NCBI RefSeq assembly: GCF_024643285.1
Contig: NZ_JAMSLW010000003.1
Span: 248,001-312,000, forward strand
Length of the DNA stretch: 64,000 nt
Source of the DNA: Parapedobacter lycopersici
GTDB taxonomy: Bacteria; Bacteroidota; Bacteroidia; Sphingobacteriales; Sphingobacteriaceae
Direction: 5' to 3'
In this document: piece after piece, positions 46,230 to 60,686 of the stretch
How the letters are laid out: each line of letters starts with the position of its first letter
How positions within the stretch are numbered: the stretch's first letter is position 1
Made by a program: the position numbers and the translations under genes
The notes under the pieces: model-generated
What the model was told of the DNA's origin: nothing
Databases searched by the model: none
The model's input: only the letters and a program-made list of their open reading frames with translations

Positions 46230-47075
46230 ATGGTTATGAAAAAGAGAAATTACGTAAGCGTGCTGTTGCTCAGTTTCACTGTCGGTCTTGTCTCCTGCGA
46301 TAAGGGAGATCCGCTTGAGCCGGTCGCGGCACCAGAAAGCAGCATCAGCATCGAACAGATGGCCAATGCGCGAAACCCCGAAGATGGCACAGGCCGGATC
46401 CACAATGCGTACCTCGATTATTTTGCAGGTCAGGTCAAAGCCGGAGACGGAGTAGACCGGGAGAAATTAATGGCTGTCACGCGCGATTTTTACCGGGAGC
46501 AGGATGAAGCGTTCAACGAGCCGGAACAATACCGCCTGCAGTCGTTGCTCGGCCGATATGCCGAATTAACCAACGGACATCCCCGCGCGCTTGCTGCCCT
46601 GAATATCTGCGACATCATCCCATCGCTGTGCAATACGCCCCCCGGGTCCCCCGGCCCGTATAATCCATTTCCCATCGTATCGCTGTTAACCGGCAACGGT
46701 GATGGTACCGCCACTTCCGGTGTGCTCGAATTTATCCGGAAAATCAAATCCATGGAAGCGGACCTGATCAATAGCCGTGAAGTTAAGGAAGGAGACCGCC
46801 GCGTGCTGCTTCAGGCTTATGCAGTAGCCCGTTACTCGGCAGCATACTGGCACAATGCCACGCACGGTGTGGCCAAACACCCACTGCGCGAACCGTTGGC
46901 CGACCTGACGCCAGCTGAGCTGTCGGACGTGGTTGCCGCGGATATCGCGGGTGCAATAGTAGGCGGTTCAGCCGGTTCAGCAGGCGGTCCGATAGGCACC
47001 GTGGTTGGTGCCGGGGTCGGTGCCGGTGTAGCCAGCGCCTATGCGGTATTCAACAAATGGAAGTGGTCGTGGTAA
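46230..47075 (+). CDS. Lipoprotein A of a tandem paralogous pair, glycine-rich C-terminal tail
   Basis: A 281-aa lipoprotein (lipobox LVSC; start at 46230 or 46236). I do not recognise a named family. Domains: a motif block near the N-terminus (IEQMANARNPEDG-x3-HNAYLDYF), a helical body and a conserved block ARYSAAYWHNA (about 193-203). The C-terminal stretch from about 230 (VVAADIAGAIVGGSAGSAGG, then further Gly/Ala/Val) is a hydrophobic glycine-zipper segment ending FNKWKWSW. The gene next door encodes a paralogue with the same blocks in the same order. Two Cys in ICDIIPSLCNTPPG may form a disulfide. Such tails insert in membranes, so a surface or toxin-like role is possible but unproven. 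Confidence 0.7.
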   Translation: MVMKKRNYVSVLLLSFTVGLVSCDKGDPLEPVAAPESSISIEQMANARNPEDGTGRIHNAYLDYFAGQVKAGDGVDREKLMAVTRDFYREQDEAFNEPEQYRLQSLLGRYAELTNGHPRALAALNICDIIPSLCNTPPGSPGPYNPFPIVSLLTGNGDGTATSGVLEFIRKIKSMEADLINSREVKEGDRRVLLQAYAVARYSAAYWHNATHGVAKHPLREPLADLTPAELSDVVAADIAGAIVGGSAGSAGGPIGTVVGAGVGAGVASAYAVFNKWKWSW

Positions 47076-57062: not shown

Positions 57063-57368
57063 CCAAGCAAACATAACCAAATCTGCCTTTATCTGCAAGA
57101 CATGGGTATATCTGAACGGCGCTAAATAACGAGACGATCGCTGAGGGGCAGAAAGCTTAGGGCAGACCAGAAGCCAGGCAATTCCGGCAATGCTGAAAAT
57201 AGCCTGCGCGGTAGGACAGGTCCCGCTGTCTTTGCACGGCTTTGAAATTTATGGAAAATAAGATATATTAGTCGCGGCCGGCGCGCAAAACACCGCGCCA
57301 TTAGCCCAATGGGTACCCACACGGTATTTATCCTGCTGGGATACCAGATTACCAAATATAAACGGAAA
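57063..57368. other. Divergent intergenic region before the GMC gene
   Basis: This 306-bp gap holds a candidate promoter at 57241-57271 for the GMC gene and a short hairpin GGCGCG-N8-CGCGCC (57280-57299) at the predicted start of its transcript. A palindrome TGGGTACCCA lies at 57310-57319. I see no gene in it; the open frame extending back to 57309 is not used. Confidence 0.45.
57241..57271 (+). promoter_or_regulatory. Candidate promoter of the GMC oxidoreductase gene
   Basis: TTTG (57241-57244), 19 nt, then TATATTAG (57264-57271), one mismatch from TAnnTTTG. Predicted start near 57278, giving a leader of about 90 nt. Confidence 0.45.
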
Positions 57369-59054
57369 ATGTCTTCAGATAAGCATACATACGATGCCAT
57401 CGTCATCGGATCGGGGATCAGTGGCGGATGGGCAGCAAAGGAATTGTGCGAAAAAGGATTGAAAACCCTTCTGCTGGAACGCGGGCGGAATGTGGAACAC
57501 GTGAAAGATTACCCTAACGCATCAAAACCGATCTGGGAATACCCTTACCGGCTCAACCGTTCGCAGGAGATGATCCGCGAGCGGCCACTCCAATCGAGGC
57601 ACTGGCCGATGAACGAACGCAATGTCCAGTTCATGGCTAATGATATCGAAAACCCGTACGAGGAAGTTAAGCGGTTCGACTGGATCAGGGGATACCAGGT
57701 GGGCGGCAAGTCGTTAACCTGGGGCCGGCAATGCTACCGCTGGAGCGACCTGGACTTTGAAGCAAACCTGAAGGATGGAATCGCGGTGGATTGGCCCATC
57801 CGCTATCAGGATATTGCACCCTGGTACAGCTACGTTGAACGTTTTGTAGGTATTAGTGGCAGCCGGGAGGGACTTTCCATACTGCCGGACGGCGAATTTA
57901 TGCCGCCGATGGAGATGAACGTGGTGGAGAAAGCCGTCGCCGCCCGCATACGTCAGCACTACCGCGATAGCCGGCGAATGTTTATCGGCCGGGTAGCCAA
58001 CCTCACGAAGCCGCTTCCGGGCCGTGTCAACTGCCAATACCAGAACCAGTGCGACGCCGGCTGCAATTTCGGTGGCTACTTCAGTACCCAGTCGTCTACG
58101 CTGCCGGCGGCGGTTAAAACAGGTAACCTGACGCTGCGTCCGTGGTCTATTGTGATGAATATCCTTTACGATAAGGACAGCGGAAAAGCGAAAGGCGTAA
58201 CGGTGCTCGATGCGCAAAACAACCAGACCTATGAATACTATGCCAAGGTGATTTTCCTGAATGCCTCCACATTGAACAGTGCCTGGGTGCTGATGAATTC
58301 CGCAACCGATGTGTGGGAAAGCGGTCTCGGCAGCAGTAGCGGCGAGCTGGGGCATAACATCATGGACCATACGCTGAACAATGGTGCATCAGGTACATTC
58401 GAAGGCTTTGATGACCGTTACATTTTTGGGCGTCGGGCCAATGGCATTTACATCCCCCGGTTTCAGAATGTAGGCGGGGATAAACGGCCCTATTTGCGGG
58501 GCTTTGGCTATCAGGGCAGTGCTTCGCGGACAGGTTGGAAGCGCGATGTCCGCGAACTGAGCATCGGAGCCAGCCTGAAAGAAGAGCTCTGTGAGCCGGG
58601 CATGTGGCAGATGGGGCTTACGGGTTTTGGCGAAATTCTGCCCTATCATGAAAACAAGGTTTACCTGAGCAAAAATGTCCGGGATAAGTGGGGACTGCCG
58701 GTGTTGGTGATGGATGCGGAAATCAAGGAAAATGAAAAAGCCATCATCGAAGATATCGTTAAAGAGGCCAGTGAAATGCTTACCGTCGCCGGCGCCACCG
58801 ATGTGCAGGAACGCAAAACCCCGTTCTACCTGGGGCAGGGTATTCACGAAATGGGCGCTGCCAGAATGGGGAGAGATCCAAAAACATCGGTTTTGAATGC
58901 TTATAACCAGGTCTGGGATGCTAAAAATGTATTTGTTACCGACGGGGCTGCGATGACATCAGCCGCATGTGTCAATCCCTCGCTTACCTACATGGCACTG
59001 ACTGCGCGGGCCGTGGACTATGCTGTCACTGCCTTAAAAAAGGGTGATCTTTGA
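57369..59054 (+). CDS. GMC-family FAD oxidoreductase
   Basis: A 561-aa flavoenzyme of the glucose-methanol-choline group. The FAD Rossmann motif VIGSGISGGWAAKELCEKG lies near the N-terminus (about 13-31). QVGGKSLTWGRQCYRWSDLDF is the typical substrate-side segment. The C-terminal GMC domain contains GQGIHEMGAARMGRDPKTSVLN and NVFVTDGAAMTSAACVNPSLTYMALTAR, with His in the active-site position. Start chosen at ATG 57369, which begins just before the FAD motif. No Tat signal is present, so it is likely cytoplasmic. Bacteroidota members act on sugars or polyols; the substrate here is unknown. It ends before the phased repeat array. Confidence 0.92.
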   Translation: MSSDKHTYDAIVIGSGISGGWAAKELCEKGLKTLLLERGRNVEHVKDYPNASKPIWEYPYRLNRSQEMIRERPLQSRHWPMNERNVQFMANDIENPYEEVKRFDWIRGYQVGGKSLTWGRQCYRWSDLDFEANLKDGIAVDWPIRYQDIAPWYSYVERFVGISGSREGLSILPDGEFMPPMEMNVVEKAVAARIRQHYRDSRRMFIGRVANLTKPLPGRVNCQYQNQCDAGCNFGGYFSTQSSTLPAAVKTGNLTLRPWSIVMNILYDKDSGKAKGVTVLDAQNNQTYEYYAKVIFLNASTLNSAWVLMNSATDVWESGLGSSSGELGHNIMDHTLNNGASGTFEGFDDRYIFGRRANGIYIPRFQNVGGDKRPYLRGFGYQGSASRTGWKRDVRELSIGASLKEELCEPGMWQMGLTGFGEILPYHENKVYLSKNVRDKWGLPVLVMDAEIKENEKAIIEDIVKEASEMLTVAGATDVQERKTPFYLGQGIHEMGAARMGRDPKTSVLNAYNQVWDAKNVFVTDGAAMTSAACVNPSLTYMALTARAVDYAVTALKKGDL

Positions 59055-59425
59055 AAATGCCAAGCTAAATATGGCGCGGGTCCCATGCACACCTTGAAAA
59101 TAGACATGGGCGAATGAACCGGTAGGTTCTTCTTCGAATGCTGGATGGTCTTCGAGTGGTCTTCGGGCGTTGTTCGAGTGCGCTTCGACTGTTCTTCGAG
59201 ACTTGTTCGACCCTTGTTCGAGTCGGCTTCGACTCCGCTTCGAGGTTGCTCGGCGTGCAACGCGTTGCGGTCCGAAGACTTCCGGGAAGATCCCCGAAGC
59301 TGCCCCGGAGGAATACCGAACCTGGGCCGAAGCCGACTCGAACATTACCCAAACATCTTCCGAACACGACTTAACGGTTTTTGGGCGCTTGTTTACATAG
59401 GCATTGCTACGGGAGATTGGCTCCC
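59055..59425. other. Convergent intergenic region holding a phased repeat array
   Basis: This 371-bp gap between the GMC and DUF2200 genes (tail to tail) holds the repeat array at 59151-59364 and no gene. Open frames that cross the array on both strands arise because the repeat contains few stop codons. Confidence 0.7.
59151..59364. repeat. Dyad-symmetric array of 11-bp-phased TTCGR repeats
   Basis: Left arm: TTCGA or TTCGG begins at 59151, 59162, 59173, 59184, 59195, 59206, 59217, 59228 and 59239, an exact 11-bp period. Right arm: the inverted motif (CCGAA, TCGAA, CCGGA or CCAAA) begins at 59272, 59294, 59305, 59316, 59327, 59338, 59349 and 59360, with a degenerate unit at 59283. The two arms mirror each other around 59257.5. 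Between them is the perfect palindrome GCAACGCGTTGC (59257-59268). The six bases between cores vary. An 11-bp period places each core on one face of the helix, so a DNA-binding or architectural role is likely. It is not coding. Confidence 0.85.
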
Positions 59426-59782
59426 TTACTTCCTTAAAATTTTCTCCATTACCTTTCCTTTCGCCAATTCATCCACCAGTTTATCCAAATAGCGGACCTG
59501 CTGTACGAGCTTGTCTTCAATTTCCTCCACCCGATACCCGCAGATTACCCCGGTAATTTTTGAAGCATCCGGATTCATCCGGGGTGCTTCGGCGAAAAAG
59601 GTTTCAAAGGTTGTCTTCCTGTCAATCTGCTGCTGCAATGTGTGTTCGTCGTAGCCTGTTAGCCAAAAGATAACCGTGTCCACCTCGGCTTTCGTGCGTC
59701 CCTTTTTTTCCGCTTTCTGTATATACATTGGATAGACGCCCGCAAAAGACATGTTATATATTCTTGCTTTATCCATTTTCAT
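59426..59782 (-). CDS. DUF2200 protein
   Basis: A 118-aa cytoplasmic protein of the DUF2200 family: [28 protein letters not shown] near the start, [52 protein letters not shown] at the end. The length is normal for the family, whose function is unknown. A start at the third codon (MDKARI) is also possible. It converges on the GMC gene across the repeat array. Confidence 0.88.
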
Positions 59783-59942
59783 TATTCATTTTGGTATTTT
59801 TTAATTCATTGCGTTTTAGCCTCTGATTACTGCCGTTATTTATAAACATCAAGTACGCATGTTGCTTTCCTTATGCTAATTTACGAAAAGTATGCGCTTT
59901 TATTTTTATATACTTGTGAACTACCATCGATATCAGACTTCC

Positions 59943-60686
59943 ATGAGATACCTGCCGTTTTTCTGCTGTATACTGTTGTGCGGGCTGTCTGCTTGCAAAA
60001 AGACACCCTCTACTGAACCTATTGACCCCGAAACACTGGATGAGGTATGGACGAAACTTGCCATCCCCGGTCAGCAGCGGGGTGTTTCTGCCATTTATGG
60101 CAATATCGATGACACGCTGGTAGTGGCCACGATGTATAAGATTTACCTGACAACGGATCAGGGAAATTCATGGCAGTTGGTGATGGATGCCGGGCGTGGA
60201 ATTTCAGGTTTCGCCAGGGTGGAAGGAGAACTTACCGCATTGGATACATTTACGGACGGTGAAGAGACTGCGCGGACCCCATTTTTGTATTCTACGGACC
60301 ACGGCAAAGCATGGGCTACCGAGGGGAAGTTTGATTACAGGGTATACGACAATATTAAAATCAACCGCAAGCGTGTCTTACTGACTGACGACCTGTATTA
60401 CCGGATTACACCCGGTGTCGTGCTGGTAAATGAATCGACAGGGGAGGAACTTGCGCGTCCGGATGAGATCCACCGGCCCCGCGATGGTGGGGAATATGCC
60501 ATATACTTTCCTTCGGCACGCCGGATGAACTGCTTATACCTGGACGATAACCAACGGCTCTACGTAGGTACGGAAGGCACCCGGTTTGTTTGGAGTATAG
60601 CAGGCAACACCCGGACGTTTCCCACGCATACCGATTTGGCATTCATCTATATTAGTAGGAAGCCGGTTGAGGTGAATGATCTCTAA
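59943..60686 (+). CDS. BNR/sialidase-repeat-like lipoprotein
   Basis: A 247-aa lipoprotein starting at ATG 59943 (signal ending GLSAC). Two Asp-box-like turns typical of BNR/sialidase propellers appear as TTDQGNSW (about 75-82) and STDHGKAW (about 120-127). VYGNIDDTLVVAT-like strands support a partial propeller. The protein is short for a full propeller and lacks enzyme motifs. Function unknown. It stands alone. Confidence 0.72.
   Translation: MRYLPFFCCILLCGLSACKKTPSTEPIDPETLDEVWTKLAIPGQQRGVSAIYGNIDDTLVVATMYKIYLTTDQGNSWQLVMDAGRGISGFARVEGELTALDTFTDGEETARTPFLYSTDHGKAWATEGKFDYRVYDNIKINRKRVLLTDDLYYRITPGVVLVNESTGEELARPDEIHRPRDGGEYAIYFPSARRMNCLYLDDNQRLYVGTEGTRFVWSIAGNTRTFPTHTDLAFIYISRKPVEVNDL

Follow-up and report, generated by a model that had tools for sequence, protein, structure and literature searches.

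The window analysed here, a stretch of 64,000 nucleotides from the soil bacterium Parapedobacter lycopersici, carries a phased array of short motifs at 59151-59364. As stated in the first-pass annotation, the array lies between two convergent genes. These are a GMC oxidoreductase gene that ends at 59054 and a DUF2200 gene that ends at 59426. The features of the locus are as follows.

57309..59054, + strand: left convergent gene, GMC oxidoreductase (context only)
59151..59249, + strand: forward arm, nine 11-bp units of TTCGR plus N6
59250..59271, no strand: centre, a degenerate unit (CTCGG) plus spacer, near 11-bp phase
59257..59268, no strand: central dyad GCAACGCGTTGC, of the form GCAA-N4-TTGC
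59272..59364, - strand: opposed arm, nine slots for YCGAA, one every 11 bp
59426..59782, - strand: right convergent gene, DUF2200 (context only)

The nine forward TTCGR cores start at 59151 to 59239 and follow one another in 11-bp steps without deviation, exactly as first described (positions 1752-1840 of locus L001, whose position p is window position p+57399). Among the nine opposed slots (59272 to 59360), YCGAA is exact at six, carries one mismatch at two and two mismatches at one, which makes the original wording of eight inverted positions matching well a fair one. The mirror axis of this copy had been placed correctly at 59257.5. The palindrome GCAACGCGTTGC is indeed present at 59257-59268, but it is not strictly central, as its own centre at 59262.5 lies 5 bp from the mirror axis. 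A 6-core pattern (up to three mismatches) matched ten times in the window, always inside 59140-59364, and gave no match in 100 dinucleotide shuffles. Within the window, the array site alone reached a lag-11 identity of at least 0.50 over 99 bp, and lags 22 and 33 pointed to the same site in a scan of lags 4-39. The sole other stretch above threshold in the window at these lags was a lag-12 periodic stretch at 46914-47046.

A BLAST search of the element against its own genome returned 49 rows at E≤10, merging to 22 loci at E≤0.001, and the matched parts of the latter were 71-88% identical. We examined 24 loci, namely these 22 and two weaker ones, with six short matches (E 0.7-8.8) left outside the set. 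The search demonstrated that the element is dispersed and not unique in the genome, the outcome on which the first-pass annotation had staked its reading. A CGAA chain of at least three cores was present at all 24 loci and a TTCG chain of at least four at 23 of them (one skipped unit allowed); across the loci, lag 11 and its multiples alone stand out. The number of cores per arm ranges from 3 to 14 and mostly differs between the two arms, so mirror symmetry is not a general trait and the window copy is exceptional in showing it. The central palindrome does recur, as the GCAA-N4-TTGC dyad was found at 19 of the 24 loci (perfect at 6, imperfect at 13). With regard to gene context, about 7 of 23 loci are convergent, 12 co-directional, 2 divergent and 2 in frame inside genes (L002 and L004), as judged from crude ORF calls (L013 corrected) in which short ORFs overlapping the element were dropped, so that 'intergenic' holds partly by construction. 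Positions at the 3' ends of convergent genes, like that of the window copy, thus account for a minority of the copies.

We then compared the units of the array, whose consensus is KSTTCGRSW+NN, repeated every 11 bp. Among the copies of the window's genome (19 of 24 loci; 72 of 171 pairs, with alignments of at least 75% identity; 600 unit comparisons), the per-site difference was 0.00-0.01 for TTCG, 0.20 for the purine and 0.23-0.40 for the remaining spacer sites. Core and spacer rates are thus more than 20-fold apart in this set, with the reservation that only units with the core kept in at least one of two sequences are counted, which understates core change. At other Parapedobacter loci (43 pairs) the core differed at 0.00-0.05 versus 0.11-0.33 for the spacer, and small Sphingobacterium sets followed the same trend, with single core positions differing by up to 0.09. 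Between species the contrast is weak: all forward cores were kept and one opposed core changed in the pair L042/L044, and two array-edge cores changed in the pair L036/L037. Because the own copies share ancestry, their core conservation may mirror constraint on a mobile lineage and not on each copy in place.

The order TTCG-R-S-W-N-N-K-S recurred in five groups, namely the window's genome, other Parapedobacter, Sphingobacterium, G022 and Daejeonella/Pedobacter. In these groups position 5 is a purine, position 6 G/C, position 7 mostly A/T (weaker in the window's genome, at 0.65), position 10 G/T and position 11 G/C. The fit was partial at four Bacteroidales loci, where position 6 is free, and at the G378 and G176 loci, where position 11 is mostly A. 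Positions that admit C/G only or A/T only are what a minor-groove contact would tolerate. Together, the rates and the recurring consensus, common to several genera, demonstrate constraint on the core and on the 11-bp spacing, as had been supposed from the window copy. The helical phase is also kept across the inversion. Calculated from the inter-arm gaps, the start-to-start distance departed from a multiple of 11 by at most 1 bp at 23 of 23 own loci (23 of the 24 loci in the set, which are related copies and not independent) and at 25 of 26 other loci with a second arm of at least three cores, the exception being Marinilabilia L143. At 16 of 20 Sphingobacterium-type loci the junction reads TTCGR-N7-YCGAA, leaving no room for the central dyad of the window's genome.

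We further studied the distribution of the element in other genomes. A DNA search found it in 6 of 60 genomes, a 4-core pattern in 10 of 60 and, over the phylum, a 5-core pattern in 5 of 395, the own genome being included each time. Presence in related Sphingobacteriaceae, the second point on which the initial reading hung, was borne out by both kinds of search, and the two-armed build was also seen in Sphingobacterium, Pedobacter and Daejeonella. Two of the five genomes with the 5-core pattern (G176 and G378) lie outside the class and carry TTCGAGAACTA-like units. In the same phylum scan, genome G268 gave 15 matches to the reversed control RGCTT at 11-bp steps, perhaps another phased family. 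A 400-kb lag-11 scan of S. gobiense identified no array there, its sole match being the S. wenxiniae locus L112.

A 7-core scan of named genomes gave at least 110 stretches, and 80 loci among the matches listed were analysed. These comprise 49 ordinary tandem repeats (mean spacer identity above 0.5) and 31 loci with divergent spacers (0.29-0.50); chains reach up to 16 cores among the matches listed. Of the divergent-spacer loci listed, 26 are labelled as Sphingobacterium, Parapedobacter, Daejeonella or Pedobacter, and the other five come from Breznakibacter, Marinilabilia, a Tannerella MAG, a Pirellula MAG and a MAG labelled Neobacillus, which is probably contaminated. Among 52 virus stretches with five cores, 14 had a mean spacer identity below 0.55, and in none of these 14 did an opposed arm exceed one core. 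The 80 loci bear on the reading that the array is a functionless tandem repeat left by replication slippage. Ordinary 11-bp TTCGR tandem repeats do exist, as the 49 loci show, and the arms differ in length by whole units, as slippage would have it. However, among the matches listed an opposed arm of at least three cores was present at none of the 49 tandem loci versus 22 of the 31 divergent-spacer loci, and both the gap between core and spacer rates in the own-genome set and a degenerate consensus common to several genera argue against slippage, which we consider improbable. To judge by their spacer identities, the divergent-spacer loci do not show the near-identical neighbouring units that an ordinary slippage repeat calls for.

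The cores of the opposed arms are complementary to each other, which would also suit an RNA feature between genes, such as a long hairpin, a bidirectional terminator or an mRNA-stability element. The folding energy of the window copy's transcript is -95.6 kcal/mol, with z -2.14 and an equally good value in 7 of 200 shuffles, and against core-preserving shuffles 25 of 46 own-copy strands had z below -2, with mean z of -2.78 for own copies and -2.21 for others. However, when whole units were permuted within the arms, the mean z was -0.20 for 16 own copies and -0.01 for 22 others, and 0 of 16 and 3 of 22, respectively, lay below -2. As the better-than-shuffle folding disappears on unit permutation, we ascribe it to the S/W consensus that the units share. 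Moreover, the spacers of the two arms showed no clear complementarity, whatever the register (best 0.33-0.56, many registers tried), demonstrating that the arms lack register-specific pairing, and the hairpin was rejected on these grounds. For the window copy, a Rho-independent terminator was likewise rejected, since 58900-59900 contains no GC-rich hairpin with a T run (0 terminator-like sites, compared with a shuffle mean of 1.3), and so was a known structured RNA, with no Rfam match at E≤1 in 58000-60500. Altogether, we regard an RNA feature as very unlikely.

Some arrays lie within open reading frames. In SusC/RagA-type or thioredoxin-like genes, both of relatives and at L002 and L004 of the window's genome, arrays were located upstream of the part encoding the signal-peptide core, and several of the array-bearing leaders begin alike (MKxFYKGGRG-like, by eye). 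Pfam analysis of ten such proteins placed seven above the curated cut-off (Plug, CarbopepD_reg_2, AhpC-TSA or related) and two below it, and L142 had no match. In 16 of 16 leaders examined (14 from relatives, 2 own) the array can be read through without a stop in the frame of the gene that follows. These leaders, 155-585 codons long with L110 of S. paucimobilis at the upper end, hold 0 stops in the frame of the gene versus 7.5-33.1 expected and 2-53 in the other two forward frames, the zero being partly a matter of choice, as the leaders were selected for a long ORF overlapping the array (L134 and L138 not counted; L004 and L109 counted from the preceding stop, not from ATG). Of the 20 SusC-type loci read in S. 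paucimobilis, from a set of 30, seven begin similarly but are free of the array, and at two the leader stays open for 500 codons or more. Arrays thus appear to insert into an n-region that tolerates them, with the frame kept open, and the in-frame SusC-like and thioredoxin-like copies show that long unconserved n-regions can be kept open.

We observed a near-identical array-bearing leader (97% over 291 bp) at L036 703-1883 of P. defluvii and L037 1177-2345 of P. indicus. Leaders may be swapped between genes, as the thioredoxin-like gene behind this one has diverged. The SusC-type n-regions L309 and L312 of S. paucimobilis contain peptides such as RLLRRQAPRNDE, which resemble in-frame copies of a common CGTCATTGCGAG-type repeat.

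The open frames through all 16 leaders, chosen as they were for ORF overlap, speak for the array being coding sequence, or its remnant, for an 11-residue repeat protein. Nevertheless, an 11-bp pitch is out of frame, and of the 23 own copies about 21 fall outside called genes. In pairs that consist almost wholly of leader, the differences at the three codon positions show no third-position excess (46/54/55 of about 211 for L002/L004; 62/64/65 of about 322 for L122/L128), and such an excess is seen in pairs that extend into the mature gene, for example L037/L109 (65/49/85 of about 410). The coding reading was rejected for want of a codon-position signal in the nearly-all-leader pairs, and we give it almost no credence. 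The outcome that would have undone the first description, a decayed repeat-protein gene, did not emerge, though in relatives the array can sit in an ORF.

A lag-11 scan of 464 kb of the own contig C16 yielded three TTCGR loci, two weak stretches, one N run and three loci of a second 11-bp family, with the core TGGACTCA, which was first seen there. A pattern search for TGGACTCA (up to three mismatches) gave 53 rows at 25 loci of the own genome, three of which rest on one 3-mismatch row each, and the reversed control of the pattern had no match in that genome. The copies read (for example L335, L337, L339 and L346 of G000) hold 3-5 units. Two of the loci are given here.

C16:233360-233400: TGGACTCA locus
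C16:470546-470586: TGGACTCA locus

Further cores were recognised by eye in Sphingobacterium leaders (L110 3600-5400, L142 900-2500 and L106 1750-2750), which carry mosaic-like 11-bp arrays with differing cores, for example AGGTACT, GACACATGT, ACAGGCAAA and GACCTAAGGAT. One pitch combined with several cores is what we would expect from a protein family with a fixed protomer contact.

How the copies came to be dispersed was addressed at the site upstream of rimP, the only one tested, where the flanks are conserved in 8 of 8 congeners searched; the identity of rimP is supported by RimP_N and RimP C-terminal domains. The interval upstream of the gene is 360-385 bp with the array in the own genome and 31-45 bp in five of the eight congeners, demonstrating an insertion-type difference at this site. 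These empty sites, although at one locus, indicate that copies insert, and we read the array upstream of rimP as a gain in the window's lineage. The remaining three congeners carry 186-282 bp of other sequence (G007, 103 bp by short match). At the same spot, L399 of G006 has an insert of about 280 bp with TTGG/TTCGG-like cores, which may be a further phased array. For the window copy no empty site could be read, since in 11 relatives the flanks examined around the DUF2200 homologue contained no array and no neighbouring GMC gene.

The main rival to the scaffold reading set out below is that the element is selfish, a non-autonomous mobile sequence whose array would be the platform on which a recombinase or transposase provided from elsewhere assembles, the mobilising enzyme reading the array. 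The cores would then be conserved merely because copies lacking them would not be mobilised. The insertion-type difference at rimP fits this, as do the likeness of the dispersed copies at E≤0.001 and the in-frame arrays in signal-peptide regions with array-less paralogues in the same genome. Its expected hallmarks were not found. In 23 copies, no terminal inverted repeat was shared, an inverted repeat reaching p≤0.02 in two (L003 and L013), no direct repeats indicative of target duplication reached p<0.1 at the ends, and there was no clear duplication at the empty rimP site; MITE ends were rejected accordingly. Mobilisation of the RAYT/REP kind was rejected because no Y1/RAYT gene (PF01797) was matched in the assembly (G000; 22 contigs, 99% complete), with 5 of 14 control genomes positive. 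An origin from phage or plasmid was also rejected, no similar record having been found at E≤1e-5. In addition, two core families at one pitch would require two such machines. The selfish reading is unlikely on this evidence, if still a serious contender.

Taken together, these results lead us to propose that the arrays are a scaffold for a cooperative DNA-binding protein that would assemble head-to-tail, and that they have spread, a reading for and against which we would wager evenly. The element would be a dispersed, apparently non-coding sequence comprising two opposing tracks of oriented, putative protein-binding units, usually placed around a central dyad in the window's genome. On each unit a DNA-binding protein would sit on one face of the helix and touch its neighbour one turn on, such that a head-to-tail filament would run along each arm and the two filaments would meet head-on at the centre. 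That TTCGR, TGGACTCA and other cores share a single pitch suggests that the 11-bp step would be fixed by the protein-protein contact, and the core by the recognition helix. Between genes, the arrays would probably act as a local roadblock or boundary, or alter the shape of the DNA. Of the possibilities raised in the first pass, a putative multimeric DNA-binding protein fits best, and the REP-like alternative fell with the lack of register-specific pairing of the arms and of a Y1/RAYT gene. In a broader and tentative form, which we hold to be possible but doubtful, several core 'languages' (TTCGR, TGGACTCA and others) at a fixed 11-bp pitch would make up a new interspersed class, each read by its own member of a family of filament-forming proteins; the class would have spread through Sphingobacteriaceae chromosomes, in frame into signal-peptide regions as well, and would form dispersed nucleoprotein boundaries. 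If a filament-forming protein does read the arrays, they would be natural genome-wide binding tracks, and effects on transcription, supercoiling and chromosome shape would be directly testable.

Operators of known proteins offer the nearest parallel. CarH is described as binding tandem 11-bp repeats head-to-tail (PMC9304148) and BldC as binding direct repeats of varying number head-to-tail (PMC5859096), with one DNA turn between protomers on smeA-ssfA (PMC11963761). Like these operators, the arrays are runs of direct repeats in one orientation with a conserved core, spaced by roughly a helical turn (11 bp for CarH), and their number varies (as for BldC). Cooperative binding on one face is a trait of CarH and BldC (PMC9304148, PMC5859096, PMC11963761) and would hold for the arrays as well under the scaffold reading. 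Operators of the CarH/BldC type, for MerR-like and winged-helix proteins, are promoter sites with few repeats, whereas the arrays have up to 16 cores (among the matches listed) in two opposed arms and are dispersed. In ParR/parC and other iteron centromeres, too, a cooperative DNA-binding protein reads direct repeats of 10-11 bp set in arrays. ParR/parC, however, is a plasmid locus with its own par genes, whereas here two dozen chromosomal copies lie beside unrelated genes.

To our knowledge, the interspersed repeats of bacteria are either hairpins (REP, BOX, ERIC, RPE) or remnants of transposons (MITE). REP/BIME elements are also dispersed, mostly intergenic and of alternating orientation (PMC2817692, PMC3733652). 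They are built from a hairpin unit together with RAYT, in contrast to arrays with no register-specific pairing and an assembly with no Y1 transposase, and the 12-bp central dyad, seen at 19 of 24 own loci, makes up little of a 200-bp element. RPE and PARCELs are likewise repeats inserted in frame in protein genes (PMC10969869, PMC2996958). Such in-frame insertion was found for 2 of 23 copies in the own genome (L002 and L004), but the arrays are 11-bp phased cores and not a conserved coding motif, nor the palindromic hairpin of about 100-150 bp of RPE. MITEs are also short insertions without a gene of their own, and inserted copies facing empty sites in relatives were seen at the one rimP site (5 of 8 congeners); unlike the arrays, MITEs carry terminal inverted repeats and target duplications, neither of which is common to the copies here.

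We found no description of such a structure in the open-licence literature, as represented by the titles and abstract openings of the best matches, subscription papers being outside this scope. In the tests made here, one or more of the traits that define REP, MITE, RPE, terminators, structured RNAs and slippage repeats were found lacking in each case. We regard the architecture as a categorically new class of repeat. No fewer than two unrelated cores occur in one genome, and where the known classes bear the hallmark of a hairpin or a transposon, conservation here concerns a short core and its precise helical pitch, maintained for many turns along two opposing arms.
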